Shown: positions 1 to 31,749 of the stretch, one piece after another | Layout: each line of letters opens with the position of its first letter | Numbering within the stretch: the first letter of the stretch is position 1 | Origin: a virus | IMG/VR virus record: IMGVR_UViG_3300048589_000183 | Coordinates: 1-31,953 of that record | Reading direction: 5' to 3' (one strand) | DNA length: 31,953 nucleotides | Notes under the pieces: generated by a model | Seen by the model: only the letters and a program-made list of their open reading frames with translations | The model's database searches: none | What the model was told of the DNA's origin: nothing | Made by a program: the position numbers and the translations under genes

Positions 1-1
1 C

Positions 2-100
2 GAAGTTGTCGTTCGATGGCTGGGCGAGTCAAACGGCTACTACGGCGAGGAAGTTCACTTCCAGAGGACGCACAAGCCCGTGTCTGGTTTTGTTGCCTAA
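2..100 (+). CDS. 3' end of an unrecognised cassette gene (5' truncated by window)
   Basis: The frame is open from the window edge for 32 codons and ends ...KPVSGFVA with TAA at 98-100. That stop lies inside the R'' box (GCCTAAC, 95-101) of the first attC site. This matches the arrangement in later cassettes, where the gene stop is embedded in R''. The visible residues are mixed and charged, and no family is recognised. Confidence 0.6.
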   Translation, partial: EVVVRWLGESNGYYGEEVHFQRTHKPVSGFVA

Positions 101-183
101 CGGCTGCCTTCAGCAGATCGCAGCCAAAGGAGCTTCCATATGAGTGAGCGTGACCGCGATTCTGCTGCAAGGCTTTGTTAGCA
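95..183 (+). other. attC-like recombination site 1
   Basis: The R'' box is GCCTAAC (95-101) and the R' box is GTTAGCA (177-183). The left inner arm GCCTTCAGCAGATCGC pairs with the complement of the right arm GCGATTCTGCTGCAAGGC. This leaves two extrahelical bases (G and A on the bottom strand) and an unpaired spacer next to the R boxes, as in canonical attC folds. The loop contains AAAGGAG (126-132) and ATG (140-142), opening a 13-codon ORF that stops at TAG (179-181) in the R' box. Unlike sites 3-5, this start is not in the reading frame that continues into the next cassette. Confidence 0.85.
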
Positions 184-225
184 ATTCTTTTTCTGGTTCG
201 ATTTCACATCAAGGAGGACGATACG

Positions 226-657
226 ATGACTGAAGATACTTCCCTTGCCTTTGCCCGTTTCGGTGTCGGCGTGGTCATGCTCACGCTCGCCGTGATACTG
301 GCGTGCTCCTGCCTATGGGCCGACGAGCCATCGTATCGCGGTCTGACTATGGAGGAATGGCGGGAGGCACACGAACCGAAGTCTAGGCCGCTGAAGTTCA
401 CGCGCAAGAAGCCGGAGCATGGTGAATATCTACTTGTGGAGGGCGATGGCGAGGACGTCGCTGCGTTCGTTGTGCGATACCAGGACGCCCTCTTTCCTGC
501 GTGGCGGGCGAACGACCCGTATGCCGCGATGGTGAATGAGGCAATCGCGGGAGCCAAGAAGTCTGGCAAGGCGATGGTGTGGGCTGGTAGCGACTTGGCG
601 AAGCGGGCCATCACGACTGCCAGCGTTGACCTGCCGATACCGGGGATCGACGAATGA
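226..657 (+). CDS. Small exported or membrane-anchored protein of unknown function
   Basis: The protein is 143 aa. The start at 226 is preferred over the upstream TTG because AAGGAGGA sits just before this ATG. Residues 12-28 form a hydrophobic segment (GVVMLTLAVILACSCLW) followed by ADEP, which suggests a signal peptide or N-terminal anchor; the Cys pair could be an imperfect lipobox. The rest is soluble and charged. No family is recognised. It is the first gene of a two-gene cassette (178-1230), with the DUF551-like gene 43 bp downstream. Unlike most neighbouring cassettes, it has its own RBS and start and does not use the attC start. Confidence 0.65.
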   Translation: MTEDTSLAFARFGVGVVMLTLAVILACSCLWADEPSYRGLTMEEWREAHEPKSRPLKFTRKKPEHGEYLLVEGDGEDVAAFVVRYQDALFPAWRANDPYAAMVNEAIAGAKKSGKAMVWAGSDLAKRAITTASVDLPIPGIDE

Positions 658-700
658 TCTGCGGCGAATACACCGACCAATCACCGCAAGGAGGATTGAA

Positions 701-1153
701 ATGGGAGCAGTAAAGGACTTCGTCATTCGGATCATGAACGGCGGCAATGACGCGCTGGTAGCAGCGAGCGAGTGGTGGGCTGAGGAGCATTGCCACGCCG
801 AGGCGGCTGCTGAGCGGCTTGGCCTCGTGGTTGATTGCCCGGACGACGAGCCGGTCACGGTCACGAGGATCGTCAATGCGATGGAGAAGGAGATTACAGG
901 GCTGCGATTGGCCGTGCGGGTCATCAAAAGAGGCCCGCTACTCGGCGAGCCGTGGGTTTCCACCAGCGAGAGGCTTCCGGACGAGGAGACTCCCGTGCTG
1001 GTTTGCTGCGAAGGCGGCGAGGTAGTCAAAGTTGCGTGGAGAAAAAGCGGGCACAAGCTCTGGTTCGTGGAGTCGGGAGTTACGTTTGGCATCACTCACT
1101 GGCAGCCCCTACCCAAACCACCAGGCGAGCCATGCCCCTGTCCTGTTTGCTAA
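701..1153 (+). CDS. DUF551-like phage protein
   Basis: The protein is 150 aa and starts at an ATG preceded by AAGGAGGA (688-695). The C-terminal half carries the DUF551 pattern: WVSTSERLPDEETPVLVC, then GGEVVKVAW, a Trp, and ending THWQPLPKPP. This small domain is common in phage and prophage accessory genes, and its biochemical role is unknown to me. The N-terminal roughly 80 residues are not recognised. The protein ends CPCPVC, and the TAA (1151-1153) lies inside the R'' box of attC site 2, so the cassette carries no spare sequence between gene and recombination site. Confidence 0.75.
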   Translation: MGAVKDFVIRIMNGGNDALVAASEWWAEEHCHAEAAAERLGLVVDCPDDEPVTVTRIVNAMEKEITGLRLAVRVIKRGPLLGEPWVSTSERLPDEETPVLVCCEGGEVVKVAWRKSGHKLWFVESGVTFGITHWQPLPKPPGEPCPCPVC

Positions 1154-1236
1154 CGGAAAAGTTGAGCGGCTTGCAGCCAAAGGACTCACCATCATGACAG
1201 ACGTTATCGCAAGTCCGCTCCAACGCTTGGTTAGCC
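1148..1236 (+). other. attC-like recombination site 2 (divergent sequence, same fold)
   Basis: The R'' box is TGCTAAC (1148-1154) and the R' box is GTTAGCC (1230-1236), 89 bp overall. The arms differ in sequence from the other sites but still pair: left GTTGAGCGGCTTGC against the complement of right CGCAAGTCCGCTCCAAC. The same two bottom-strand extrahelical bases (G and A) sit about six bases apart, as in the other sites. The loop retains GCAGCCAAAGGA and an ATG (1194). Arm sequence therefore covaries while fold and loop are kept. Confidence 0.82.
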
Positions 1237-1694
1237 CTCTCGCTGATTCCATCCTGCTTCCGCCTGGGGGCAAGACGCAGACCGACGTATGGGCTACGCC
1301 GCAGTGGCTTTTCGATTCGCTCAATAAGGAGTTTGGATTCACGCTTGACCCATGCACGGACGGGACGAACGCAAAATGCGAGAAGTTCTACACCGAGGCC
1401 GACAACGGGCTTTGCCAGGACTGGGGCACGGAAACGGTTTTCGTGAACCCGCCGTACAGCAACTGCGAGGCGTGGATGGCCAAGGCTTACGGTTCGGCAC
1501 AGGCAGGGGCCACCGTGGTTTGCCTGGTTCCGGCGAGGACCGACACGAACTGGTGGCACCGCTACGCGATGAAGGGGGAGATCCGGTTTCTGCGCGGACG
1601 GCTCAAGTTCGGGGACGCCACGGACCCCGCACCGTTCCCGTCCGCGTTGGTTGTGTTCAGGCCGTGGGAGTTCCGTCTTGTTTCCATGGGCTAA
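1194..1694 (+). CDS. Phage DNA N6-adenine methyltransferase (Dam-like)
   Basis: The protein is 166 aa and belongs to the phage N6-adenine-methyltransferase type (PF05869-like). It has TDVWATPQWLFDSLNKEFGF near residues 30-49, DPC at 52-54, and the catalytic motif NPPY at residues 85-88 (FVNPPYSN), followed by a hydrophobic strand and PARTDTNWW. The likely reaction is SAM-dependent adenine methylation of phage DNA, for example against host restriction. The only plausible start is the ATG at 1194, inside attC site 2, with AAAGGA upstream. Residues 1-12 are encoded by the attC, and codon 13 (GTT) is the R' box. No ATG occurs between the cassette boundary and the conserved domain. The TAA stop (1692-1694) lies in the next R'' box. 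Confidence 0.85.
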   Translation: MTDVIASPLQRLVSPLADSILLPPGGKTQTDVWATPQWLFDSLNKEFGFTLDPCTDGTNAKCEKFYTEADNGLCQDWGTETVFVNPPYSNCEAWMAKAYGSAQAGATVVCLVPARTDTNWWHRYAMKGEIRFLRGRLKFGDATDPAPFPSALVVFRPWEFRLVSMG

Positions 1695-1779
1695 CGGCTG
1701 CCTTCAGCAGATCGCAGCCAACCAACTATGAACAACACGCAAGACGATGACGCGATTCTGCTGCAAGGCTTTGTTCTCT
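1689..1779 (+). other. attC-like recombination site 3
   Basis: The R'' box is GGCTAAC (1689-1695) and the R' box is GTTCTCT (1773-1779). The inner arms are identical to sites 4 and 5. The R' box departs from the usual GTTRRRY, but it is complementary to AGAGAAC, the R'' box at the end of the following cassette (2444-2450), so the pairing would be perfect in that cassette's circular form. The loop carries ATG at 1728 without a clear AAAGGAG, since the sequence there is CAGCCAACCAACT. Confidence 0.83.
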
Positions 1780-2126
1780 CTCCTCATCCGTTGAGGGTGC
1801 AGCGAACCAGGAGCCGTGGGGCGAGGACACCGAAGGGGGCCGTATATGTTGGGCGTCCTACGGTGTGGGGGAACCCATTTCGTGCTGAGTATCGCGACGG
1901 TTCATGGCGAGTAGTTCGAGCCGCAAGCGGGAAATCGGTTTGCGCGATGCCAGGCCAAAATGAAGCAAAGGCATACGCGGTGCGACTGTATCGCGAACTG
2001 ATCCGTCGCGAGCCGACGCTGGCGATCCGAGCCAAGTCAGAACTGGCGGGCAAGAAACTGGCGTGCTGGTGCTCGCTGGACGGCCCGTGCCACGCCGATG
2101 TGCTGGCGGAGATTGCCAATTCCTAG
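1728..2126 (+). CDS. DUF4326 family protein with attC-encoded N-terminus
   Basis: The protein is 132 aa. The DUF4326 signature is clear: LRVQRTRSRG, GAVYVGRPTVWGNPF, then AKAYAVRLYRELI and the end motif LAGKKLACWCSLDGPCHADV with its CWC and CHAD residues. The family is common in phages; its function is not established, though the Cys/His positions suggest metal binding. The domain starts almost directly at the cassette boundary. The only ATG is in the attC, so residues 1-15, including DDDAILLQGF, come from the recombination site. No strong RBS is visible. The gene ends 3 bases before an attC remnant. Confidence 0.8.
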   Translation: MNNTQDDDAILLQGFVLSPHPLRVQRTRSRGARTPKGAVYVGRPTVWGNPFRAEYRDGSWRVVRAASGKSVCAMPGQNEAKAYAVRLYRELIRREPTLAIRAKSELAGKKLACWCSLDGPCHADVLAEIANS

Positions 2127-2129
2127 ATG

Positions 2130-2155
2130 AGCTAACGGCTGCCTTCAACAGATCA
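2130..2155 (+). other. Truncated attC remnant inside a cassette
   Basis: AGCTAAC followed by GGCTGCCTTCAACAGATCA reproduces the left half (R'' box plus left arm) of the local attC type with one substitution. No right arm or R' box follows. The surrounding unit (1774-2526) therefore probably began as two cassettes fused by loss of the right half of this site. Confidence 0.7.
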
Positions 2156-2170
2156 CGCGGCTACTCCATC

Positions 2171-2272
2171 GTGATCCATCGCAAATCGGCCCACATACTT
2201 ATGGATTGGCTGGCGAAGCACGAAAGGCGCAGAGTCAATGAGGAAACCAAGCGAGTCAGGAAACATGACTAG
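2171..2272 (+). CDS. Possible very small ORF after the attC remnant
   Basis: A GTG (2171) or an ATG (2201) opens a 33- or 23-codon frame rich in basic residues (WLAKHERRRVNEETKRVRK) ending with TAG at 2270-2272. It overlaps the start of the next small ORF (ATG 2265). There is no clear RBS and no recognised family. It could instead be the debris of the cassette whose attC was truncated. It is reported because this roughly 300-base stretch otherwise holds no recognised gene. Confidence 0.22.
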   Translation: MIHRKSAHILMDWLAKHERRRVNEETKRVRKHD

Positions 2273-2444
2273 GCTGGTGGCCACTAACGCCACCGCCGAG
2301 GCCGTATCAATTCGGCGTCATCACTGCCAGGACTCGCTTGTGGGGATGCGACGTGAGGCCAGCCCTGTAACCCGCAGGGACGGCGTAAACCGTGGCGGCT
2401 ATACGGCCACGCCGGACTCCGGTAACCGGCTTTTCATTCCGTGA
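2265..2444 (+). CDS. Possible small cassette ORF, unrecognised
   Basis: The ORF has 59 codons from ATG 2265 (weak CAGGA upstream) to TGA 2442-2444. The last base of the stop is the first base of the R'' box of attC site 4, the same stop-in-R'' placement as in other cassettes and the best argument that it is real. The product is basic and contains no recognised domain. Its start overlaps the end of the preceding mini-ORF. Confidence 0.35.
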   Translation: MTRLVATNATAEAVSIRRHHCQDSLVGMRREASPVTRRDGVNRGGYTATPDSGNRLFIP

Positions 2445-2532
2445 GAGAACGGCTGCCTTCAGCAGATCGCAGCCAAAGGAGTATCAATGACGCAAGACGA
2501 TGACGCGATTCTGCTGCAAGGCTTTGTTAGGC
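2444..2532 (+). other. attC-like recombination site 4
   Basis: The R'' box is AGAGAAC (2444-2450) and the R' box is GTTAGGC (2526-2532). The arms match sites 1, 3 and 5. The loop has a good AAAGGAG (2475-2481) five bases before ATG (2487). The start opens a leader peptide that runs across the R' box into the next cassette. Confidence 0.85.
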
Positions 2533-2561
2533 ATTCCTGTTTGACGAGGAGTATGGCATGA
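2487..2561 (+). CDS. attC-encoded leader peptide coupled to the HNH gene
   Basis: The leader is 24 codons. It starts in the loop of attC site 4 behind AAAGGAG and encodes MTQDDDAILLQGFV, the same peptide that is fused to other cassette proteins, then ten cassette-encoded residues. Its TGA (2559-2561) overlaps the HNH start ATG (2558-2560) as ATGA, the classical arrangement for translational coupling. The peptide probably acts through its translation rather than as a product. This is inferred from sequence only. Confidence 0.45.
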   Translation: MTQDDDAILLQGFVRHSCLTRSMA

Positions 2562-3082
2562 AACGAAACCGCACCGCCGCGACGGCGACATCCGCGAAGT
2601 GGAGGCAGGAGCGAACCGAGAAGTTTCGGATTCTTCATCGCGACAATTTCACCTGCCGCTACTGCGACGCCAAGCCAGGCTCCGAATTCCTTGAGGTGGA
2701 TCACTTGATTCCGCGATCGCTGGGCGGAAGCGATGACCAAGCCAATCTCGTCGCGGCGTGCGTAACGTGCAACCGAAGGAAGTCGAACACGATATTCCTG
2801 CCGCCATCAATGGTCGAAGGGCCAGACGATGAAGACGGATGGTCGATCCACAAGACGTTTGGGGTATTCGCGGTCAAGTTCTCGGACGCGCAGGTGGTCA
2901 TTGAAGCCAACTGGGGGTACTGGTTTCCGGCGTGGTGGGTTCACGATCACGAGAAGTGGCAGCACATCCACGACAAGGAGTGGCCCAAGGAATGGATGCG
3001 AGACCTGTACGAATGCGCGAACTACGTTGGACTACTGGTTGCCAGAGATGCGGACGAGGAAGCGGAGTACGACGATGATTGA
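2558..3082 (+). CDS. HNH endonuclease
   Basis: The protein is 174 aa. The HNH fold occupies residues 20-77: FTCRYC (C33, C36), LEVDHLIPRSLGG (D48, H49), NLVAACVTCNRRKSN (N63, C68, C71, N72). The two CxxC pairs bind structural zinc, and H49 and the downstream Asn are the expected metal and catalytic ligands. Such enzymes nick or cut DNA; in phages they can act as homing nucleases or in packaging. The C-terminal half is Trp-rich and acidic (ending DADEEAEYDDD) and unrecognised. The cassette gives it its own ATG with GAGGAG upstream, which is also coupled to the attC leader. Three GGCTCT repeats follow the stop. Confidence 0.85.
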   Translation: MKRNRTAATATSAKWRQERTEKFRILHRDNFTCRYCDAKPGSEFLEVDHLIPRSLGGSDDQANLVAACVTCNRRKSNTIFLPPSMVEGPDDEDGWSIHKTFGVFAVKFSDAQVVIEANWGYWFPAWWVHDHEKWQHIHDKEWPKEWMRDLYECANYVGLLVARDADEEAEYDDD

Positions 3083-3115
3083 ACACGGCTCTGGCTCTGG
3101 CTCTGGCATCCTGTT

Positions 3116-3205
3116 GCCTAACGGCTGCCTTCAGCAGATCGCAGCCAGGAGATACTGCTATGAGACAAGACGACGACGCGATTCTGCTGCAAGGCTTTGT
3201 TCTCT
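3116..3205 (+). other. attC-like recombination site 5
   Basis: The R'' box is GCCTAAC (3116-3122), complementary to the start of the preceding cassette (TTAGGC, 2527). The R' box is GTTCTCT (3199-3205). The arms match the common local type. The loop has AGGAG (3147-3151) eight bases before ATG (3160). This start is in frame with the following ORF. Confidence 0.85.
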
Positions 3206-3399
3206 CTTTTCTGTGCTGCCGATGCGGAGAGAGCTTCCAGAGCCTTCCCCCGCCAGCGGACACCAGGCCCGACGAACCGAACCCGATGTGCATTGATTGC
3301 ATAGAGCGGGCACTGGACGAGGTTGAGCCAGAGCCGATATCGCAGGAGGAGATAGATTCGATTGTTGCCAGAGTGACCGGAAGGGATCGCCGATCATGA
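3160..3399 (+). CDS. Small zinc-ribbon-like protein with attC-encoded N-terminus
   Basis: The protein is 79 aa. MRQDDDAILLQGF comes from attC site 5; the cassette-encoded part begins VLSFLCCRCGESF. Cysteine pairs CCRC (residues 19-22) and CIDC are separated by about 25 residues, a likely zinc ribbon, followed by an acidic stretch (LDEVEPEPISQEEI). No ATG exists between the cassette boundary and the first Cys pair, so translation must begin in the attC, where an AGGAG is correctly placed. The family is unrecognised. Confidence 0.6.
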   Translation: MRQDDDAILLQGFVLSFLCCRCGESFQSLPPPADTRPDEPNPMCIDCIERALDEVEPEPISQEEIDSIVARVTGRDRRS

Positions 3400-3429
3400 G
3401 CAGGATGAACAGTTGGCCGGGAGCACACC

Positions 3430-3648
3430 ATGGGAGGAATGATGGATATCGTTGTCGTGAAGCAGTGGTCGGGTGAGATAGACGACGTTGTTGGGCGGCT
3501 GACGCTGACCGATGACTACAAGGCGGCTTTTGAGTCTGAGCGGATGCAAGCCTTGGTGGATTTCGCATATGAGCGGCAAGATGACGGTACGCTTCGGATC
3601 GTTGCGGCGAGAATCAGGCCGTCGCCCTCCGTGCCCTTGTCCCCGTGA
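3430..3648 (+). CDS. Hypothetical protein, second gene of the last cassette
   Basis: The protein is up to 72 aa. Candidate ATGs are at 3430, 3439 and 3442; GGGAGGA lies too close to the last two for a confident choice, so the start is uncertain. The product is acidic to neutral and ends in a Pro/Ser tail, with no recognised family. Its TGA (3646-3648) overlaps the R'' box AGAGAAC (3648-3654), as in the cassette ending at 2444. No attC arms follow. Confidence 0.5.
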   Translation: MGGMMDIVVVKQWSGEIDDVVGRLTLTDDYKAAFESERMQALVDFAYERQDDGTLRIVAARIRPSPSVPLSP

Positions 3649-3654
3649 GAGAAC

Positions 3655-3774
3655 TACCTATTAGCCCCGGTCGCGCCCCTGATTCGACTTAGCGCCCGGT
3701 TCGACGCCCCACTTATCACCGATTAGCCGCGACTTATCGCCGATTCGGCACCCGGAGATAACTACTTATCCCCG
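3655..3774. repeat. Degenerate short repeats between convergent gene sets
   Basis: Copies of ACTTATCNCCG occur at 3711-3721, 3732-3742 and 3764-3774, with a looser copy at 3687-3699 (ACTTAGCGCCCGG) and a weak one near 3658-3670. A longer imperfect direct repeat links GAGAACTACCTATTAGCCCC (from about 3649) with GATAACTACTTATCCCCGG (from about 3757). The region has no ORF and no clear rho-independent hairpin. It could hold protein-binding sites, a termination region for the converging transcripts, or an old attachment point. Confidence 0.5.
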
Positions 3775-3953
3775 GAATGCCCGCGTGCCACCGCCAACGC
3801 CTCGCACGCCCGCCGATAGGCGTCGATGAGCCGGATCATGTCCGCTGCGAGGGTGCCACCCGTCCCGGTCCAGCAGTTCGCCGGGCCGAGCCTGCGGGCG
3901 CGCTGCTCCATCGCGGCAAGGTCTTCCGGCGATAGCGGCGGAAAGAGTGTCAC
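3762..3953 (-). CDS. Last gene of the late operon, hypothetical
   Basis: The protein is 63 aa from a GTG start at 3953 that overlaps the upstream stop as GTGA. This overlap decides the start over a longer frame reaching 4046. The product begins VTLFPPLSPEDLAAMEQRAR and contains a likely amphipathic helix, MIRLIDAYRRACEALA. The family is unrecognised. It lies directly downstream of the tail-fibre candidate and the 104-aa gene, so it may be an accessory or chaperone of the fibre. Confidence 0.6.
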   Translation of the reverse strand: MTLFPPLSPEDLAAMEQRARRLGPANCWTGTGGTLAADMIRLIDAYRRACEALAVARGHSGDK

Positions 3954-9184: not shown

Positions 9185-9472
9185 TCAGCGGTGCCCGGCC
9201 GCCACTTCGGCCAGGCACGCGGCGTATCCGGCGATGTCCACCGGATTGTCCGGCGACGGGTTTCCGCCCTGATGCCGCGAGCACTTGTCGAGAATCATGC
9301 ATATGGCCCAGTCCTCTGCCGTCAGCGGCTCGCGGAGCTTGTGAGCGAATACGGCACTGATGGCACCGGCCGTGCGTGCGAAGTGTTCGTTGGGTGGCCC
9401 GTAGGTGTCGTGCCTATCCTTGACTGCGGCCAGGGCTTCCTTGAGCGTCTTGATTGCTGCTGAATCTTCCAT
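9185..9472 (-). CDS. DUF6378-like phage protein
   Basis: The protein is 95 aa. The pattern DRHDTYGPPNEHFARTAGAI, then LTAEDWAICMILDKCSR and DNPVDIAGYAACLAEV, fits the small all-alpha DUF6378 domain common in phages. His, Asp and Glu residues resemble those in MazG/HD-like helical enzymes, but no activity is established. AAAGGG lies just before ATG 9472. It lies 12 bases after the metallophosphoesterase gene, which suggests a common nucleotide-related function. Confidence 0.65.
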   Translation of the reverse strand: MEDSAAIKTLKEALAAVKDRHDTYGPPNEHFARTAGAISAVFAHKLREPLTAEDWAICMILDKCSRHQGGNPSPDNPVDIAGYAACLAEVAAGHR

Positions 9473-13242: not shown

Positions 13243-13997
13243 TACTCGAAGCACTCCGCAGCAATGAGAAACCACTTCGGCCCGTAGCGGTGGCACGCAA
13301 CCCGCGAATACGATCCGGTCGGCACCGTGACGTTTGCGAACCAGTTCTCGCCAGTGAACATGCCGGTAGTGGCATAGCCGTCCGTGTCGATCGGCTCAAT
13401 CGTCGCCACCGTATCCTTCACCCACATTCCCGACACGCCGCCAGTGATCCGCCCGAGCCGGAACGTCTCGTCATCGTTTCCGAGCCGCACGTAGCCCCAC
13501 TTGCCTTCGCCGGTGCCGCTCTGCTTCCACAGAATGAACGCCGGGCCAGCCAGTGCCGTCTGCAACTGCGTCACGTCGTCCTTCTTGACGCGGGCATACT
13601 TGTGGCTCGTGTCTAGCACCTCCAGCTTGACCGGCGTTACGCCCGCCACGGCACCCATTGCATACGCTCCGGTGGCACACGGTGCCGCCAGGATGCAAAA
13701 ACCACTGCCCGTGTTGTCGTCAGGGTACGATCCCGAAAACACCGGAACCGTGGCAAGCTGCCCACCCACCGGCCCCGTTGGCGTGATAATCGCCGTGCCC
13801 ACCTTCAGCACCGAATAGATGTCCAGCACACCGGTCGTGTCGTTGCGGACGGCCACCCGGAAGTTGAGCAAAGCGTCGGCCGCTTGGGCTCCTCCGAAGT
13901 CCGCACGAGGCGAGACGACGTCCATCGTGCGATTCCATGCCGCAGCATGGATGGTCAGCTTCTCGCCGGGCTGGACACGCTTAAACGGGTCGGCCAT
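13242..13997 (-). CDS. Probable tail-associated protein
   Basis: The protein is 251 aa and begins MADPFKRVQPGEKLTIHAAA and WNRTMDVV, then runs in beta-rich segments. The N-terminal PGEKL..HAAAWN segment looks like a tail-protein attachment motif, but no family is certain. Its start overlaps the previous stop at 13997, and its stop forms TAATG with the Cys-rich gene. The tight coupling of the 323-, 251- and 607-aa genes implies one structure. Confidence 0.55.
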   Translation of the reverse strand: MADPFKRVQPGEKLTIHAAAWNRTMDVVSPRADFGGAQAADALLNFRVAVRNDTTGVLDIYSVLKVGTAIITPTGPVGGQLATVPVFSGSYPDDNTGSGFCILAAPCATGAYAMGAVAGVTPVKLEVLDTSHKYARVKKDDVTQLQTALAGPAFILWKQSGTGEGKWGYVRLGNDDETFRLGRITGGVSGMWVKDTVATIEPIDTDGYATTGMFTGENWFANVTVPTGSYSRVACHRYGPKWFLIAAECFE

Positions 13998-14977: not shown

Positions 14978-16891
14978 TTACGCGAACACGAGAGGCTGGC
15001 TTGAACGAGCGGCAAGCTGCCGCAGAATCTCGTTACTCCGTTCAACGCCCAGGGCCGTACGCTCTGCCGCAGACAGCAACCCGCGATCGCTGACCGCAGA
15101 AACGCCACCACGAACGCCGGTGCCGGAGCCGCCGGCACGCATAGTCCCCTTGGCAGCCTCCGCTGCCCTTGCCGTGTTTTTCTTGATTTCGTCAAGCTGT
15201 CCGGTCATCTTTGCCGTATTGCTTGCCGTCTCCGTGGCGGCAGTGATCGAAGCACCAATCCCAAGCTGACCAAGGACGCCGCCGCCGAAGGTGCCGAACG
15301 TGTCGCCACGCGATTGACCAGCAGGAGAAGCACCACCGCCTCCAGTCTCGGCAAGCGACTGCCTCTCCTCGTCGCGGATCAGCTTTGCCTCATCGTCCAT
15401 CGCTTTTTCGCCTTGAGTCCACAAATAGGCCTCAAGTGCAACGCCAGCAGCAAGCGCACCCCACCCGACCGGACCCATATTCGCCATGACAACCTTCATG
15501 GACCGAGCCGTCGCAATCATCGCAAGCCGCACCCGCGCCAGGGCCGCAACCACCATCGGCCCGAACTTAACGATCGAATCGAAAGCCCTGACGGTTAGCG
15601 ACATGCCTCCACCGAGAAGCAGCATCCCGCCGCCTATGCCCGTAAGTGCCGCAGCAAGGCCGGCGACGATCGGCGCTAGCCCAGGTATGTTGTGTAGAAG
15701 CCAAGCGGCAGCGTCGATCAGCCCGGTGAACAGTGGCCCGACAACTCGCAGCGTCGGCCCGAGCGACGTGCCAAACGCATCCGCGAGCCGCATCGTCGCT
15801 GCGTACAGACTGGTGAAGAAACCAGTCAAGCCTTCCATCATAATTGCGTACTTCTCGGATACGCTGCGGGCGTTCTCCATTTCCGTCGCGATGTCGCCGA
15901 ATCCCTTTTGGCCGGCATCGGCGAACGCCTGGATGACCTTGATGCCGCGAACGTCGAACACCCTGACTAACGCCTCATTCGCGAGCATGGCCTCGCGGGC
16001 GGAATCGCTCATACCGCCAAGTCTCTTCTCGAACATGGCCGCAATCTGCGAGATAGGCAACAGCTTGCCAGACGCATCCACGAACGATTCCATCGAGAGT
16101 CCGAGCGTTGCCAGGGCTTCCTTGGCCTCGTTGGTAGGTGCCAGGAGCTTGGTCAGAACAGTCTTGATGCCGGTGCCTGCCTCTTCGCCCGTCATGCCGT
16201 AGCGAGCGAGAACCGCGATGGCTTGCGACAACCCGAAGAGGCTTTGCCCGGTACCCTTGGCGACCGATGCAATCTGCGGGAACGCCTCGACCATCTGAGC
16301 AATGCTGGTTTCGCTTGCATCAGCAGCGGCGGACATCGTGTTGATGGCCTCCTCTGCTGACGTGCCGAAGACGTTCATTGACACCTTCATGAACTCGGCA
16401 GCGGTCGCGGCATCGACACCGCCTACCTTGGCGAACTCGACCGCTGCCTTGCCGGCACCTCCAAGCACGTCCTCAACCTTCATGCCGGCCTTAATCAGCA
16501 GCGTCATTGCGGCGGCAGCATCCGCAGGCCCAACGCTCAATTCCTTTGACATGCGGATGGCAGCGGCCCGGACGGCATCCATCTCCCTTGGCGTGATGTT
16601 CGATACGGCGCCCTTCAACTCAAGCAAAGAGTCCTGAAACGTGGCTGCGGCTTTTGCCGCGAGTACCATTGGAGTTCCAAGGGCAATGCCGCCTGCCATT
16701 GCCCGCATACCTCCAGACATAAGGCCAGAGCCGACACCCTGAACTCGCCCGCGGGCAGAAGGGTCGGCGAGAGAGTTACCAAACGCCGCCGCCTTGCCTC
16801 GCATTTCACGCATTTTTCGCATGAAAGGCTCAACGTACGCGCCGACTTCAACGAACGCTTTTCCGGCGCGAACGCCAGCAGCACCGCTCAT
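14978..16891 (-). CDS. Tail tape measure protein
   Basis: The protein is 637 aa. It shows the PhageMin_Tail type: an Ala/Gly/Met-rich start, then the block SNITPREMDAVRAAAIRMSK, FAKVGGVDAATAAEFMKVSM and FPQIASVAKGTGQSLFGLSQ with GTGIKTVLTKLLAPTNEAKE, followed by hydrophobic segments (about residues 385-440) and a coil-forming C-terminus. Tape measures set the tail length; at the usual 0.15 nm per residue this one implies a tail of roughly 95 nm. Its ATG overlaps the preceding stop as TAATG. Confidence 0.92.
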   Translation of the reverse strand: MSGAAGVRAGKAFVEVGAYVEPFMRKMREMRGKAAAFGNSLADPSARGRVQGVGSGLMSGGMRAMAGGIALGTPMVLAAKAAATFQDSLLELKGAVSNITPREMDAVRAAAIRMSKELSVGPADAAAAMTLLIKAGMKVEDVLGGAGKAAVEFAKVGGVDAATAAEFMKVSMNVFGTSAEEAINTMSAAADASETSIAQMVEAFPQIASVAKGTGQSLFGLSQAIAVLARYGMTGEEAGTGIKTVLTKLLAPTNEAKEALATLGLSMESFVDASGKLLPISQIAAMFEKRLGGMSDSAREAMLANEALVRVFDVRGIKVIQAFADAGQKGFGDIATEMENARSVSEKYAIMMEGLTGFFTSLYAATMRLADAFGTSLGPTLRVVGPLFTGLIDAAAWLLHNIPGLAPIVAGLAAALTGIGGGMLLLGGGMSLTVRAFDSIVKFGPMVVAALARVRLAMIATARSMKVVMANMGPVGWGALAAGVALEAYLWTQGEKAMDDEAKLIRDEERQSLAETGGGGASPAGQSRGDTFGTFGGGVLGQLGIGASITAATETASNTAKMTGQLDEIKKNTARAAEAAKGTMRAGGSGTGVRGGVSAVSDRGLLSAAERTALGVERSNEILRQLAARSSQPLVFA

Positions 16892-25292: not shown

Positions 25293-26612
25293 TCAGGCGG
25301 TTGCCATCTTGTAGGCACCCTTGGTCTCGGCCACGGCCACGCCGTAGGAGAAGTGGCCGCGGAACTGCACGCCCAACTGAGCGAAATCGACGTCAGCCGA
25401 TTCCACGGTCGGGGCACGCTGCCCGTTGAGGTAGGCAATCTCCATCGCCGGGAGGTCCATCGGGCTGGCGGCGAGCCACCAAGTCGTCGCAGACGACAGG
25501 TAGCTCGATCCGACAACCTCGTACCGCCCAGCCAGCACGTTCTGCGAGGTCTGGGTCGTCGTGCTGCCCGTGATGAGCAACGCGGACGACATCATCTCAG
25601 CCGCAGTGATCTCAAGGTCAGCCGGCACAACAATGAACCGCGGCATGATGCCGAGCGGGTTGTTGTCGCTGTCCTTGAGCTTCCTCCAAGCCGTCACAGC
25701 CGCCTTGAGCGACGTCAGGCTGAGAGCGTTGCCACCGCCAGGAGTGGCGGCGGTGTAGCTCCCAGCGGCAAACGCCGTCCAGAAGTCGGTATTGAGCTTC
25801 AGAGCGGCACCACGACCGAGCCGGCTTGGCACCTGGGTCAGCACGCCGAGGTCGTCGTTGATGAGGTCCACCATCGACACCTTGGTGAGCCGGCCCGTGA
25901 GCTTGGCCTGGATCGTGCGAGTCTCATCGGAAGCCGCAGCGCCCTTGAGTTCGCCGGTCGGGCCAACATCAAGGAAGTCGAAGCCACCGTTGAGCCGAAC
26001 GCCGGTCATGCTCTTGTAGTCGCTGACCGAACGAACCGCCGCGATCTTCTCGTAGCCGCTTTCCACCGAAGAGAACCCGGCAAGGAGGAACTTGCCGTAG
26101 GTCGCCGAAAGCACGTTGCTGATCGAGTGCGTCGAGAACGCATTCGCCAGCACCTCCTTGCAGTTGCCCTGGTCGATTCGGTAGTGCCCGGTGTACCCGT
26201 TTGCGCGGGCAGCCTCGATCAGCACTTCCTGAAGCGAACCGCGGCCGTGCCGCTTGTGGGCAAGCTCAAGCGTCTTGGCATCGAACGACGCCTCGACGTT
26301 GGGCAGACCACCGGCAAGGCAGAGCCCGGCCTCGATCACCTTCGGAGAGTTTGCAGCAGCAGCGTCAACCACGTGGACGGCCGGACTTTTGGCCCGGTCG
26401 GCACGCTCGCGGCCCAACAACTCCTCCTTCAGCTTCGACAGCACGAGGTCGGCAACGCTGTTGGCGTCAACGAGGCTCGCGCCGTCGCCACCCTTGGCTT
26501 CGATGCCGAGCGATGCTTCAACGCTCTTGTTCTCGGTCCCCACGGCGGCCTTCGCCGTGTCTTCCGCAGACGCCTTGACGTCTTCGGGCTTGTCGGTGGC
26601 CTTATCAGCCAT
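25293..26612 (-). CDS. Nested internal start: protease-less scaffold-capsid form
   Basis: An in-frame ATG at codon 185 of the fusion gene (26612-26610, protein begins MADKATDKPEDVKAS) is preceded by GGAGG with eight bases between, better than most RBSs in this operon. The product would have 439 aa and contain the scaffold-like linker and the capsid domain. Internal starts that make excess scaffold or capsid relative to protease are known, for example lambda C and Nu3. This is a prediction from sequence. Confidence 0.55.
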   Translation of the reverse strand: MADKATDKPEDVKASAEDTAKAAVGTENKSVEASLGIEAKGGDGASLVDANSVADLVLSKLKEELLGRERADRAKSPAVHVVDAAAANSPKVIEAGLCLAGGLPNVEASFDAKTLELAHKRHGRGSLQEVLIEAARANGYTGHYRIDQGNCKEVLANAFSTHSISNVLSATYGKFLLAGFSSVESGYEKIAAVRSVSDYKSMTGVRLNGGFDFLDVGPTGELKGAAASDETRTIQAKLTGRLTKVSMVDLINDDLGVLTQVPSRLGRGAALKLNTDFWTAFAAGSYTAATPGGGNALSLTSLKAAVTAWRKLKDSDNNPLGIMPRFIVVPADLEITAAEMMSSALLITGSTTTQTSQNVLAGRYEVVGSSYLSSATTWWLAASPMDLPAMEIAYLNGQRAPTVESADVDFAQLGVQFRGHFSYGVAVAETKGAYKMATA

Positions 26613-27164
26613 AGGGTCAACCTCCGAACTCGCATCCGCTGCGATAGCGGCAGACGTATTGGCGTCTGCTCCAAAGAGGACCAAAGACACTTCCCGCAGC
26701 CGCGAGGCCCGGACGACGGTAATGGGACCAGCGAACTCGCGACCGTTGACGGTCACGCTCGCGCCCGACTTGACGTATTCGGTGCGGTCAACGCTCGCAC
26801 CAATCGAAGCCTGCAACGGCACGCCAGCGGCCCCGAGGCGGATGAGCTTGTCGGCGTTGGGTTCGCCGCGGATAAGGTCGGCCGCAATATCAAGCTGCTT
26901 GCCGTCGTTCTCGATCCGCGTTGACTTGCCTACCACGCTGTCCAGCGAGTTCATGTCCTCGCGACCGTGGGCATACAGAACCGGCACCGTGTCGCCAGCC
27001 TTGACGCCTGCCAGGTCCACCACGAGCGGCACGTCCGACCACGCTTGAGCGATCTGGTCGCCGGTGTACGCCACGATGTCAACGGTCGGCTGACGCTCGC
27101 CCTCGCCAGCGGCGAAGGCAATGTCGGCGGAGAGGTTCAGCGTGTAGTTCTTCTTCTTGCTCAT
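25293..27164 (-). CDS. Prohead protease-major capsid fusion protein
   Basis: The protein is 623 aa; ATGA overlaps the portal stop. Residues 25-165 form an HK97-type (S78-like) prohead protease: the His is H66 in LYAHGRED and the Ser S120 in LQASIGASV. Residues 180-270 are Ala/Lys/Glu-rich, a scaffold-like linker. Residues 275-623 are the capsid domain (Mu gpT-like/HK97 fold style): FSTHSISNVLSATYGKFLLA, TRTIQAKLTGRLTKVSMVDL, INDDLG, ending YGVAVAETKGAYKMATA. The precursor would assemble, then cleave itself between scaffold and capsid domains. An internal RBS and ATG suggest a second, protease-less product. Confidence 0.88.
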   Translation of the reverse strand: MSKKKNYTLNLSADIAFAAGEGERQPTVDIVAYTGDQIAQAWSDVPLVVDLAGVKAGDTVPVLYAHGREDMNSLDSVVGKSTRIENDGKQLDIAADLIRGEPNADKLIRLGAAGVPLQASIGASVDRTEYVKSGASVTVNGREFAGPITVVRASRLREVSLVLFGADANTSAAIAADASSEVDPMADKATDKPEDVKASAEDTAKAAVGTENKSVEASLGIEAKGGDGASLVDANSVADLVLSKLKEELLGRERADRAKSPAVHVVDAAAANSPKVIEAGLCLAGGLPNVEASFDAKTLELAHKRHGRGSLQEVLIEAARANGYTGHYRIDQGNCKEVLANAFSTHSISNVLSATYGKFLLAGFSSVESGYEKIAAVRSVSDYKSMTGVRLNGGFDFLDVGPTGELKGAAASDETRTIQAKLTGRLTKVSMVDLINDDLGVLTQVPSRLGRGAALKLNTDFWTAFAAGSYTAATPGGGNALSLTSLKAAVTAWRKLKDSDNNPLGIMPRFIVVPADLEITAAEMMSSALLITGSTTTQTSQNVLAGRYEVVGSSYLSSATTWWLAASPMDLPAMEIAYLNGQRAPTVESADVDFAQLGVQFRGHFSYGVAVAETKGAYKMATA

Positions 27165-28642
27165 TCGTCCTCCGGTTCGTCGCCTTGCATCGCAGCGGCA
27201 ACAGCCACTTGCGAAAGGCTGGCTGGATCAATTCCGAGTTCACGCTGCAAGGCAAGTTCTTCGGCTCGCTTTCGCATCACGAGCCGGCTGTCCTTGCCAC
27301 GCTTGCCGCAGACTTCCGCAAGGGTCGTCATGTTTGCGGCAAGCATGATCGCGTCGGCCTCGGCTTCCTTCTTGGGGTCCACATGCTCGAAGCCGTCCCA
27401 CGTCCACGACCAGTTCCATTCCGAGAACGGCGGAAGGCCGCGCGGAATCATGCCGCTGATGAGCGTTGCTTCATCGAGCCACGAGTAGAGAATCGGGTCG
27501 AGCCAAACCCGCTCGACGTCCGACCGCTCTACGTTGATCGCCTTGCGATAAACCTGATAGTCGCCACGCATTGACGAGTAGTTCGCGGACGACGAATCCA
27601 TCGCCGCGACGATGTACGGCATGTCGAGGCAGCGGGCGATCTCGTTCAACACCTGGCGGACGAACGCCGAGTGTTCGCTCTTGGGATGCTCCGACTTCAT
27701 CTGCACCGGCTCCCAACCATCGGGAGCGGCAACGCCCATATTCGGGACAACCGGCATCGTCTCGAACAGGTCGAGCGTCTTCGCGCCGCCGGTGTCGGCT
27801 GGCATGGTCGTCTTCAAGACGAACGAAACGTTGGCGGCAGTCTCGTAGGCAAGCACGACGGCACGCCCGGTACGCCGCAACATGGCGAACAGTTCAAGTG
27901 CCGGCGTGATCTCCGGTACGCCGCGGCTCTGGCCCGGTCGCGTTGCGTGGAACCAGTGAAGCACCTTGTCGGCGTCAACCCACTCGCCATCCTGGCCCCA
28001 CCCGGAGAACGACGAGCCAGGGTGATACTTGGCGACCCAATACGCAGCCGGGTTGCCGTCCTCGTCGAACCGGATGCCGTCCACCTCGTTCGGCAGTTCA
28101 ATCGTGCCGAGCGGCGAATAGACCTGATCGGCCTCAAGCAACTTGACGTCGAGTTGCACCTTGCGGAACTTGCGGTTGTTCGTTTTCAGCCCGAACACCT
28201 CGCCGGCGGCGATCTTGGCCTGCTTGGCAAGTCGCAATTTCTGAGCCAAGTCGCACTCGACCGACCAATCGAAAAACGCCGTTTCGACTTGCCGCGTCTT
28301 GCGCGGGTTGACGTCCGGCCCGAGGTCAAGCTGCAACCGTGGCCCGGTGCCAACCATGTCTCGCGCCCACGTCGAAGCCATGCCAGCCGCGTAGGAGTTG
28401 TTGGCAAGTTCGTAGCGAGCCCGGTTGCGAATCTTCGTACGCACGGCCGGCGACAACGCCGCGTCCGGCGAGAACCCGTCAGCGTTGGCCCAGTGCCGCT
28501 CGTTGTTCGCGTGCGTCTTCGCAGCGTCGTAGGACGCCCGCAAAAGGCTCTGGATGGTCGCGTTTTGAGCGTCCACCGTGGCGGCGAGCTTCGCGCGGCT
28601 AGTTCCGGCGAGCGGCGAAAGGAGCTTTCCGAGAAGGCTCAT
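27161..28642 (-). CDS. Portal protein, lambda gpB-like family
   Basis: The protein is 493 aa. Typical segments are RYELANNSYAAGMASTWARD and MVGTGPRLQ, LLEADQVYSP, VLHWFHATRPGQSRGVPEIT, and the C-terminal EIARCLDMPYIVAAMDSSSA with NYSSMRGDYQVYRKAI. These are hallmarks of the phage lambda-type portal family (PF05136), the dodecameric ring through which DNA is packaged and ejected. Overlaps of four bases with the gpW-like gene upstream and the capsid gene downstream support coupled synthesis. Confidence 0.92.
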   Translation of the reverse strand: MSLLGKLLSPLAGTSRAKLAATVDAQNATIQSLLRASYDAAKTHANNERHWANADGFSPDAALSPAVRTKIRNRARYELANNSYAAGMASTWARDMVGTGPRLQLDLGPDVNPRKTRQVETAFFDWSVECDLAQKLRLAKQAKIAAGEVFGLKTNNRKFRKVQLDVKLLEADQVYSPLGTIELPNEVDGIRFDEDGNPAAYWVAKYHPGSSFSGWGQDGEWVDADKVLHWFHATRPGQSRGVPEITPALELFAMLRRTGRAVVLAYETAANVSFVLKTTMPADTGGAKTLDLFETMPVVPNMGVAAPDGWEPVQMKSEHPKSEHSAFVRQVLNEIARCLDMPYIVAAMDSSSANYSSMRGDYQVYRKAINVERSDVERVWLDPILYSWLDEATLISGMIPRGLPPFSEWNWSWTWDGFEHVDPKKEAEADAIMLAANMTTLAEVCGKRGKDSRLVMRKRAEELALQRELGIDPASLSQVAVAAAMQGDEPEDE

Positions 28643-29616: not shown

Positions 29617-31749
29617 TTACCCAAAGCGGCGTTTTATCTCTTCGCGGCGGCGCCTAGCCTCCTCCGAGCTAACAGCCTGCCGCCTTACCGCTGGCTCCGA
29701 TTCGGTGCCAACGTCAGAGATGCCGGAGAACGATGCCGCAACCGCTGCCCCCACAAGGCAGTCCCACAAATGGTTGTCGCGGCCAGGCGTCAGCCGCCAC
29801 TCATCAACGATTCGCTGCCTGCTCGTCACTCGCACTGGATGCTCGCTCGCGAACTGCTCCGCGAGCATGTCGTGTTGACCTTCGTGGAGCGTCAGGCCTT
29901 GCGGATCGCCGACCGGCAAGCGAATACGCGAGGCCACGAACGACTTCCATGCGTTCGTGTCGTAGAGCAAGTGCTTCTGCTTCTGGATCGTGCTGGTTCG
30001 CCAGTTGAACCCGACCCGCTCGCCTCGATCCGGTGCTTTGTCGCTGATTGTTGACGACGAGGCTCCGACGAATCGGCCGTGCGTTGGAATGATTCGCGGC
30101 CCCCATTTGCTTCGCCTCGCAAAGTCTCGCACGACGCCTTGCGTCTGAGCCCAGTTGGCGTCAATGAGCATGTGCGAAACCCGCATCACAGCGTCGTCAT
30201 TCTCGCGTGCGAACTCGCGCTCAAGAAGCATCGTCGCAACGGCACCGAGGCCGGCGTGAATTGCTGGCTCGATCGCATCGACGCCGGCCTCCCGCTGTAG
30301 CGTGCGGCGGGTTTCTCGCAGCGTGAAGTAGCTGCGGCCCTGGTCAGGGTATGCACCGTAGGCAACAACGTGACCGCGGAAGCGGTGCCCCCACGCTGCC
30401 ACGAGCCAATACAGCACGGTTTGCTGAACGTCCACGAAAACCGTGAGGGTGTCCAAGCCGGAAGGCACGATCCAACGGTCAATCTTCACCGCCTTCGCAA
30501 CCGTGTCGTTTACCTTGAGCCCGGCGGCTTCCGAGGCCATTTCGAGCGGTTGGTTCTGATATTCCGCGAAAAAAGCCGCTTCGCCGCGGTCAATTCGCAG
30601 ATTCCAGGCGTGCTGAATGGCCGAAAGCTCGTCATCATTCTTTCGTTCTGCCCACGAAACGATGCCGCCTTCGTCCATCGCCTCGCGGTTGCGAGCGTAG
30701 AACGCGGTCGCCTCCGCCGTGCCTGCACCGGTTCGCTGCCCACGGCGTCGAAGTTCGGCGTATTCCTCCCACAAGGTCGCATTCTTCGGCCATTGCTGGA
30801 CGAGCGAGAACCGCTTGCCTTGAAATGCCGGGTTCCGTTCGCGGTTCAATAGCCGCTCGGCCAGGTCGTCAGGCCAGATGACGGTGACGGTCGCTAGCCC
30901 AGCGATCCTCACTCGCGGCCCGGCGAGGCCAAGGATGGCACCGCGAATGACCGACTCGCGGTTGGCGACCTGCGAAGGCGATCTTGCGGAGTCGTCCGTC
31001 TGCGGGTCGTCGATCAGCACGAGGCCAGGCCGCACCTTTCGGCCGTCGCTCGCACGCTTCGCGGACATGCCACGAATTTGCCCGGTGATGCCAGCCACCC
31101 GGATGATGCCGCCGGCGGCCGGCGAGCCAGGAATCGACGGGAACTGCAATTCGTCCGATGTCCAGCGAATATGAGTCGGCTTGCCTTGGAATAGCTGCCC
31201 CTTTGCCCGCTGGTGAATTCGCTCCAAGGCGACAATCGGATAGATCGCCTCGGGAAAGTCCTCAAGCAGAAGCTCGTTCGTCTCGCACTCCACTTGCACG
31301 CTCTGGAGCATCATCGCGGCGTGCCCCTCGTCGCTGCCAACGATCGCAACGAAGTCGCGATGGCCGTACAGCAACGCCCACAATGCAGCGGCTTCGACAA
31401 GGCTCGTCTTTCCTGAGCCTCGCGGCATCGCGAACGCCAGCAACTCGCCTCGAAGCACTGCTGCCTCGACGGCTGCGATCACCTCCAGGTGGTCCGGCGA
31501 CCACGCAAGCTCGAACGTGGCCGGCATGTAGCTTTCGCAGAAAAGCCGGAACGAATGCCGGCCGGCGTCACGGCGATCGCGTTTGACGATCGGCGGAATT
31601 TCACCGATGTCGCGGCCGGACTCGGAAAGGGCAACGTCACGCTCGCGAGTGCGTGCCTTTTTGGTGTCGTACGAGGCCTTCAGATATCCGCTAGGTGCCT
31701 TTTTTTGAGGCTTTTCGGCGGCCGGCGGTGGCTTTTTCTTGCGTGCCAT
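29617..31749 (-). CDS. Terminase large subunit (gpA-like)
   Basis: The protein is 710 aa. The ATPase domain has Walker A PRGSGKTS (109-116) and Walker B LVLIDDP (243-249). The nuclease domain has D440 in VFVDVQQ, D530 in LIDANW, and the end motif DNHLWDCLVGAAVAA (658-672) that is typical of gpA-type terminases. It translocates DNA into the procapsid and cuts genome ends. The N-terminus is Lys/Pro-rich. The stop codon is two bases from the convergent plus-strand gene. A small subunit gene is expected just to the right, beyond or at the window edge. Confidence 0.93.
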   Translation of the reverse strand: MARKKKPPPAAEKPQKKAPSGYLKASYDTKKARTRERDVALSESGRDIGEIPPIVKRDRRDAGRHSFRLFCESYMPATFELAWSPDHLEVIAAVEAAVLRGELLAFAMPRGSGKTSLVEAAALWALLYGHRDFVAIVGSDEGHAAMMLQSVQVECETNELLLEDFPEAIYPIVALERIHQRAKGQLFQGKPTHIRWTSDELQFPSIPGSPAAGGIIRVAGITGQIRGMSAKRASDGRKVRPGLVLIDDPQTDDSARSPSQVANRESVIRGAILGLAGPRVRIAGLATVTVIWPDDLAERLLNRERNPAFQGKRFSLVQQWPKNATLWEEYAELRRRGQRTGAGTAEATAFYARNREAMDEGGIVSWAERKNDDELSAIQHAWNLRIDRGEAAFFAEYQNQPLEMASEAAGLKVNDTVAKAVKIDRWIVPSGLDTLTVFVDVQQTVLYWLVAAWGHRFRGHVVAYGAYPDQGRSYFTLRETRRTLQREAGVDAIEPAIHAGLGAVATMLLEREFARENDDAVMRVSHMLIDANWAQTQGVVRDFARRSKWGPRIIPTHGRFVGASSSTISDKAPDRGERVGFNWRTSTIQKQKHLLYDTNAWKSFVASRIRLPVGDPQGLTLHEGQHDMLAEQFASEHPVRVTSRQRIVDEWRLTPGRDNHLWDCLVGAAVAASFSGISDVGTESEPAVRRQAVSSEEARRRREEIKRRFG

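Follow-up and report, generated by a model that had tools for sequence, protein, structure and literature searches.

The window analysed here is a whole IMG/VR virus record (IMGVR_UViG_3300048589_000183), a linear fragment of 31,953 bp, whose left part (positions 1-3654, plus strand) is an array of gene cassettes separated by integron-type attC sites. We found that these sites delimit exchangeable cassettes of the integron type, that the cassettes sit within phage genomes and not at a host boundary, and that their genes are inverted relative to the polarity of the recombination sites. The hosts of this virus family are probably Planctomycetes bacteria. The sequence comparisons are best explained by a phage-borne integron platform that would lack an integron integrase (IntI) of its own and work with inverted cassettes, a reading to which we give a probability of roughly 0.78.

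Structure of the attC sites

All five attC-like elements claimed in the initial annotation of the window were recovered in place by a covariance model. They score 84-106 bits against 15.6 bits for the best decoy in 870 kb; the model was trained on 11 phage and 4 chromosomal sites, including the five of the window, so that these scores are a test of location and contrast. The sites and the associated incomplete elements are:

95-183, plus strand: attC1, with R'' GCCTAAC at 95-101 and R' GTTAGCA at 177-183; its loop has AAGGAGCTTCCATATG and the leader MSERDRDSAARLC ending in a stop codon
1148-1236, plus strand: attC2, with divergent arms that still pair; the loop ATG at 1194 is the in-frame start of the Dam open reading frame (ORF)
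1689-1779, plus strand: attC3; the loop ATG at 1728 is the in-frame start of the DUF4326 ORF
2130-2154, plus strand: truncated attC, left arm only, within cassette 4 (1695-2449), which is a fusion of two cassettes
2444-2532, plus strand: attC4; the loop ATG at 2487 opens a leader of 24 aa, with its TGA stop sharing bases with the start codon of HNH (ATGA at 2558)
3116-3205, plus strand: attC5; the loop ATG at 3160 is the in-frame start of a 79-aa ORF
3648-3654: isolated R'' box (AGAGAAC), closing the array on its right side

The fold, the covariation and the covariance model all indicate an imperfect palindrome with R'' and R' boxes (AAC..GTT), an internal loop (unpaired central spacer, UCS), an L stem and a variable terminal loop. 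The stem is 95.8% paired, against 26-46% in slid controls, and over the whole structure 10 pairs are changed on both sides; these compensatory changes support the pairing of the arms with two extra bases. Pairing is kept where the arm sequences differ, as in the attC of phages L136 and L138 and in attC2 of the window, and the minus-strand attC of L138 has the same fold geometry as that of the host locus L216. AAC and GTT are invariant in the R boxes, several of which depart from RYYYAAC/GTTRRRY (AGAGAAC, GTTCTCT), as host boxes also do (GTTCGGC).

The complementarity between the start of each unit and its own R'' box, first remarked in the initial annotation, proved to be real. It extends to 7 of 7 bases in 24 of the 26 complete units (11 phage contigs), whereas 20,000 shuffles of the unit ends averaged 2.3 such units and never gave more than 9. 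With five attC and no IntI, the window fits the definition of a cluster of attC sites lacking integron integrases (CALIN; at least two attC, no intI), a term that leaves out both its attI and the inversion of its genes.

Arrays within phage genomes and their variation

A search of IMG/VR with a 24-base attC arm returned six contigs besides the window (G000). The phages considered here are all metagenomic, partial and uncultured, and several contigs end inside arrays. Contig G001 (39,999 bp) is 99% identical to positions 1691-31953 of the window; it starts inside the attC3 region (1689-1779), which is an assembly break, and carries on for 10.4 kb beyond the right edge of the window; this stretch has RecT and RecE genes and a phage integrase and leads into further cassettes. 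Since G001 runs from the late genes via the integrase back into cassettes, the array lies between the integrase and the late genes in a closed or permuted genome. The order phage integrase gene, cassette array, attI and late genes was also found on single contigs in G010 and L138. In G003, an unrelated phage of 59 kb, the array lies between SSB-like and helicase-like genes (names read off the sequence, with no profile test). The proposal that integron-type cassettes lie within a phage genome is thereby upheld, and the host-chromosome boundary between 3654 and 3762 that would have spoken against it was not found: a conserved attI-like site (3648-3777) ends the array there.

Cassette content varies: near-identical phages differ by one whole cassette. 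The initial annotation had named a lack of cassette-order variation among related phages as a finding that would count against it. G002 matches G001 at 98-100% identity over ~6.7 kb of backbone, and cassette X is 100% identical over 419 nt between the two, with an additional cassette in the G002 array between cassettes X and Y. The arrays also have elements in common across unrelated phages. The region after the attC remnant (2153-2528 of the window) is 90% identical to a cassette of G004, with no nucleotide similarity detectable between the backbones, and attC arms are common to unrelated backbones.

There is a second genomic location for such cassettes. One or more inverted cassettes lie near the terminase gene in the backbone relatives G007-G009, L039, L047 and L049 (cassettes near terminase: L017 12847-12934; L028 12844-13248; L039 2421-2505; L047 143-192; L049 2268-2357), and several of these end in an attI-like site. 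The partial cassette gene at the left end of the window (1-100) resembles the cassette gene after the terminase in G007/G009, so that related cassettes occur at both locations. G007 and G008 look empty at the integrase locus, and the covariance model placed their cassettes after the terminase gene.

Polarity of the sites and orientation of the genes

The first extrahelical base (EHB) of an attC directs strand choice, and inversion of the EHBs shifts the crossover to R''; the terminal structure has no role in this selectivity (Bouvier et al. 2009, PMC2727003). The attC studied here are nearly symmetric in sequence, and their direction is set by the arm that bears the EHBs. These bases are always in one and the same arm, with two per site in most phage attC. 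They lie on the attI-proximal arm in 30 of 30 phage attC (attI at right), many of which are mutually related and do not represent 30 independent events, and in 15 of 15 chromosomal Pirellulales attC anchored by intI and attI. The two extrahelical bases reported in the initial annotation are thus present, in arms whose pairing covaries, but their assignment had to be corrected: they belong to the attI-facing arm, and this fixes the polarity. Because the EHB arm faces attI in phages as in hosts, the attC-attI polarity is canonical, read on the minus strand.

The orientation of the genes differs between phages and hosts. The longest ORF points away from attI in hosts (11 v 3) and toward it in phages (21 v 4), a difference with a Fisher p of 3e-4. 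Two of the four phage exceptions have a Pfam-matched gene (DUF551) on the strand toward attI. Once 51 chromosomal attC had been turned to match the phage orientation, the neighbouring gene lay on the opposite strand in 39 of 44 cases on the downstream side and in 38 of 45 on the upstream side. Because the phage genes are inverted toward attI, each attC precedes its gene: it is found 5' of the cassette gene and not at the usual 3' position. We also considered pairing each attC with the gene to its left, an assignment rejected on the EHB polarity together with the attI at the right end. The comparison of G001 and G002 also speaks against it, in that the attC before cassette Y are more alike (edit distance 11) than the attC after cassette X (15), by a small margin.

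The attC loop as a predicted translation start

In this position, the attC loop (variable terminal structure, VTS) usually supplies the predicted translation start of the cassette, directly or via a coupled leader. A Shine-Dalgarno sequence (SD) followed by ATG was found in the loop of 17 of 21 phage attC, against 1 of 51 chromosomal attC in the same orientation; chromosomal Planctomycetes attC with the same arms have no SD. Of 23 loop starts, 11 open the main ORF of the cassette (Dam, DUF4326 and the 79-aa ORF in the case of the window), about seven yield a short leader that stops at or close to the following start (as in attC4, ahead of HNH), and two terminate within R'. One attC of G002 (9321-9409) keeps a host-like loop with neither SD nor ATG, which points to a chromosomal origin.

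Array expression is probably driven from the end opposite attI. There, upstream of the distal half-site, the promoter-like sequence CTGGCA-N17-GACAAT is conserved in three phages; a strict sigma-70 consensus scan did not call it. The integrase-side end of the array is half an attC, with the EHB arm and R box only (G001 39401-39427, G010 13890-13926 and, in array orientation, L138 3710-3747), and the last cassette should therefore be locked in place. In G010 (13860-13895) and at the same place in L138, the promoter-like sequence ends only 6 nt before a loop ATG; the first cassette transcript of these two phages may be leaderless.

The attI-like end of the array

Sequence features at the right end of the arrays are those of a putative primary insertion site, attI. 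In the window this is:

3648-3777, minus strand: attI-like site, with R box AGAGAA^C at 3648-3654, core TACCTATTAGCCCCGG and direct repeats ACTTATCACCGATT, ACTTATCGCCGATT and CGACTTAGCGCC; on the minus strand it reads attI G^TTCTCT

AAC followed by TACCTATTAGYCCCGG is kept at this end in four phages (the window, G003, G010 and L138), and in all four the attI-like core is followed by short direct repeats. Positions 3648-3669 of the window read AGAGAAC and then TACCTATTAGCCCCGG; the counterparts are CGCCTAAC and then TACCTATTAGTCCCGG in G003, GCGAGAAC and then TACCTATTAGTCCCGG in G010, and CGGAGAAC and then TAGCTATTAGTCCCGG in L138. The arrays of the remaining phages end in other attI-like sites. 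Using a weight matrix built from 14 chromosomal Pirellulales attI, we found that 5 of 10 phage attI match the host type (L136 26.2 bits, G005 25.8, L135 23.4, L047 20.4, L039 13.7). In the controls, host sites left out one at a time score 14-30 bits, except L214 (-21.8), and 4,832 background GTT sites average -12.3. A half-site in a Planctomycetia metagenome-assembled genome (MAG), L170, is flanked by ordinary chromosomal genes with no array, and was rejected.

Source of the recombinase

Host IntI acting in trans is a likely mechanism, and the best supported. It is favoured because 5 of 10 phage attI match chromosomal Pirellulales attI, because IntI and the terminase family of these phages are both frequent in Pirellulales, and because near-identical attC arms occur in Planctomycetes MAGs. 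IntI is encoded in 106 of 397 Pirellulales genomes (27%), with up to five copies in some, and the phage-family terminase in 115 of the 397, often in two copies, so that related prophages look very common in this order. The search for the attC arms in host chromosomes, suggested in the initial annotation, thus had a positive outcome, and one of the MAGs with such arms (L157) carries them on the same contig as an intI. In the host locus L216, intI reads toward its array. Chromosomal loci L139-L212, mainly from Pyrinomonadaceae MAGs, are rich in attC of another type, itself distinct and conserved (CAGCTGCGGCGCGCGATCAGCAT .. CGCGCCGTCAGCTGCAAGGCTTTGTT); a single contig often has several of them.

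In the mechanism that we propose, host IntI would, during infection or lysogeny, insert cassettes, folded as single strands, at the phage attI, with new ones entering beside the late genes at window position 3653/3654, and recombination between attC sites by the same enzyme would shuffle or excise cassettes. The array would be read from the phage promoter at the integrase end (CTGGCA-N17-GACAAT), and a captured gene would be translated on arrival because the cassette brings its ribosome-binding site and start codon in the attC. A phage cassette in a host integron would be antisense to the canonical direction of the promoter Pc, and a host cassette in a phage would be antisense to phage transcription. 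With their genes inverted, the phages would therefore have a cassette pool of their own in common, served by a borrowed enzyme. The gain of a cassette between near-identical phages lends indirect support to recombination by IntI.

Several points weigh against this reading. The initial annotation had advised a search for an attI and an integron integrase, and only the former was found in the phages. That none of 11 phage records encodes an IntI (best 21.6 bits, against a TIGR02249 cut-off of 265) favours the reading, but these records are partial and an IntI elsewhere in the genome could be missed. In G001, G010 and L138, a phage tyrosine recombinase gene stands beside the array, and this enzyme may play a part. 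The attI type of the window scores only at background level with the host matrix (3-6% of GTT sites reach its score). When sought with at most 2 mismatches in 397 Pirellulales genomes it gave 6 matches, not above a reversed-pattern control; none was above chance in 372 Planctomycetota genomes, where the best (8e-5) lies in a carA-like coding sequence, and it was not found in 8 host genomes. Finally, of 40 integrated prophage regions that have a related terminase, none carries such an array near that gene. Two weak attC were seen in these regions (L272-L311), both in L305, and were set aside because they look canonical and chromosomal.

Some of these points favour a self-contained capture system that merely resembles integrons, in which the phage's own tyrosine recombinase moves the cassettes; we regard this as unlikely. 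Such a recombinase, which does not score as an IntI, lies directly upstream of the array and reads into it in G001, G010 and L138, and is within ~600 nt of attI in L136, and no chromosomal counterpart of the window's attI type was found in the genomes searched. However, G003 (59 kb) and G004 (62 kb) have the same attC but no homologue of this integrase, and G002, whose array has changed, has only a 140-aa C-terminal ORF. In G007 and G008, which have no array at that locus, a distant relative of the integrase is present there, as a lysogeny integrase would be. The integrase also falls outside the IntI family, while the geometry of the attC is that of host IntI substrates.

It is still less probable that the arrays are ordinary CALINs, pieces of chromosomal integrons acquired by phages and carried passively, with no special adaptation. 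Phages with CALINs are already known (Qi et al. 2023, PMC9892861); nearly identical attC arms exist in chromosomes, and the loop of the G002 site at 9321-9409 is host-like. Yet a passive fragment would not be expected to show consistent gene inversion, SD and ATG in the loop at the frequencies given above (17/21 v 1/51) and a conserved attI, nor to occur in several backbones and at two genomic locations, with cassette gain between near-identical phages. An assembly or binning artefact, in which repeats joined a chromosomal array to phage contigs, is very improbable: the contigs of the window, G001 and G002 do break within the array, as assemblers do at repeats, but in G010, L138 and G003, from different IMG data sets, array and phage genes are continuous on both sides, the genes point the opposite way from those of chromosomal cassettes, and attI is conserved at the phage side.

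Cassette cargo and the rest of the window

Taking each cassette from the C of R'' to the AA of the following R'', the array of the window comprises:

1-100, plus strand: end of a partial cassette gene, with 77% identity across 101 nt to the one that follows the terminase in G007/G009
101-1153, plus strand: cassette with attC1, an ORF (226-657) and a DUF551 ORF (701-1153)
1154-1694, plus strand: cassette with attC2 and a Dam-type DNA adenine methyltransferase (1194-1694; Pfam Dam, E 3.7e-33)
1695-2449, plus strand: cassette with attC3, a DUF4326 ORF (1728-2126), the attC remnant and an ORF (2238-2444)
2450-3121, plus strand: cassette with attC4 and an HNH endonuclease (2558-3082; Pfam HNH, E 1e-13)
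3122-3653, plus strand: attI-nearest cassette, with attC5 and two ORFs (3160-3399 and 3430-3648)

Across the arrays, the cargo includes Dam, N6_N4 and MT-A70 methyltransferases, HNH, DUF551, DUF4326, DUF6527, DUF7352 and small unknowns. Anti-restriction and moron roles are plausible for these genes, and the presence of DNA methyltransferases and small phage genes in several arrays is consistent with the swapping of such functions. One G003 cassette has a tRNA-Glu gene (anticodon TTC) between two attC (L107 17076-17148).

The rest of the window is a tailed-phage late region, identified by PHROG matches:

3762-31749, minus strand: late region, converging on the array
14978-16891, minus strand: tape measure
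25293-27164, minus strand: protease/major head protein
27161-28642, minus strand: portal
29617-31749, minus strand: terminase large subunit

Searches of the window for Rfam families and for tRNA genes gave no match. Among the cultured phages searched, none had an attC match, and the terminase was at most 27% identical, over half its length.

Relation to known systems and significance

Integrons and CALINs have been found in sequenced phages, and phage attC are substrates of IntI1 (Qi et al. 2023, PMC9892861). The arrays of Tetrasphaera phage TJE1, Pseudoalteromonas phage PH101 and Polaribacter phage P12002L resemble those described here in having attC clusters without intI and methyltransferase cargo; the text consulted describes no attI for the CALINs of these virulent phages, and no gene inversion relative to attC, start signals in attC, family across phages or cassette gain. 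The sedentary chromosomal integrons of Pirellulales and other Planctomycetota (L214-L216, L226-L253) have the same attC arms, fold geometry, two EHBs and canonical polarity, and share the attI core with 5 of 10 phages. They differ in that their genes point away from attI, their attC are 3' of the gene, their loops lack SD and ATG, and intI lies beside attI.

In class 1 integrons, ORF-11 provides a translation start within attI1. There too the recombination site provides ribosome binding to a cassette, but the signal is in attI and serves the first cassette only, whereas in the phage arrays it is in most attC and travels with the gene. The attP/int modules of temperate phages likewise have a tyrosine integrase beside a recombination site, as in G001, G010 and L138, but the phage arrays have multiple units and sites that fold as single strands, and the integrase is absent or broken in several. 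In the open-access literature (preprints and most subscription journals being outside this scope) we found no description of phage cassettes that are inverted and coupled to translation, nor of integrons in planctomycete phages. Phages bearing attC are already known; the inverted, translation-coupled platform is a new form of such a system. The right-end attI, the inversion of the genes relative to attC and the loop as a translation start complete the picture given in the initial annotation, which had none of them.

These results suggest that the virus swaps genes through a library of its own, for which it uses the integron enzyme of the bacterium. We lean, with some reserve, towards the broader view that Planctomycetes phages have evolved an integron cassette class of their own, inverted, with a built-in translation start, dependent on host IntI and expressed only in the phage context, whose pool unrelated phages would have in common, protected from host integrons or concealed within them.

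Integron cassettes are usually viewed as bacterial elements in which attC follows the gene and the promoter Pc, next to attI, drives expression. This virus family would keep the recombination chemistry and reverse the gene, with the start codon written into the recombination hairpin. The flow of cassettes between phage and host and the freedom of the attC terminal loop, which is reported to have no role in strand choice (PMC2727003), become directly testable. If true, this would show how viruses can parasitise a bacterial gene-capture enzyme, and would explain the fast exchange of methyltransferases and small accessory genes among phages.

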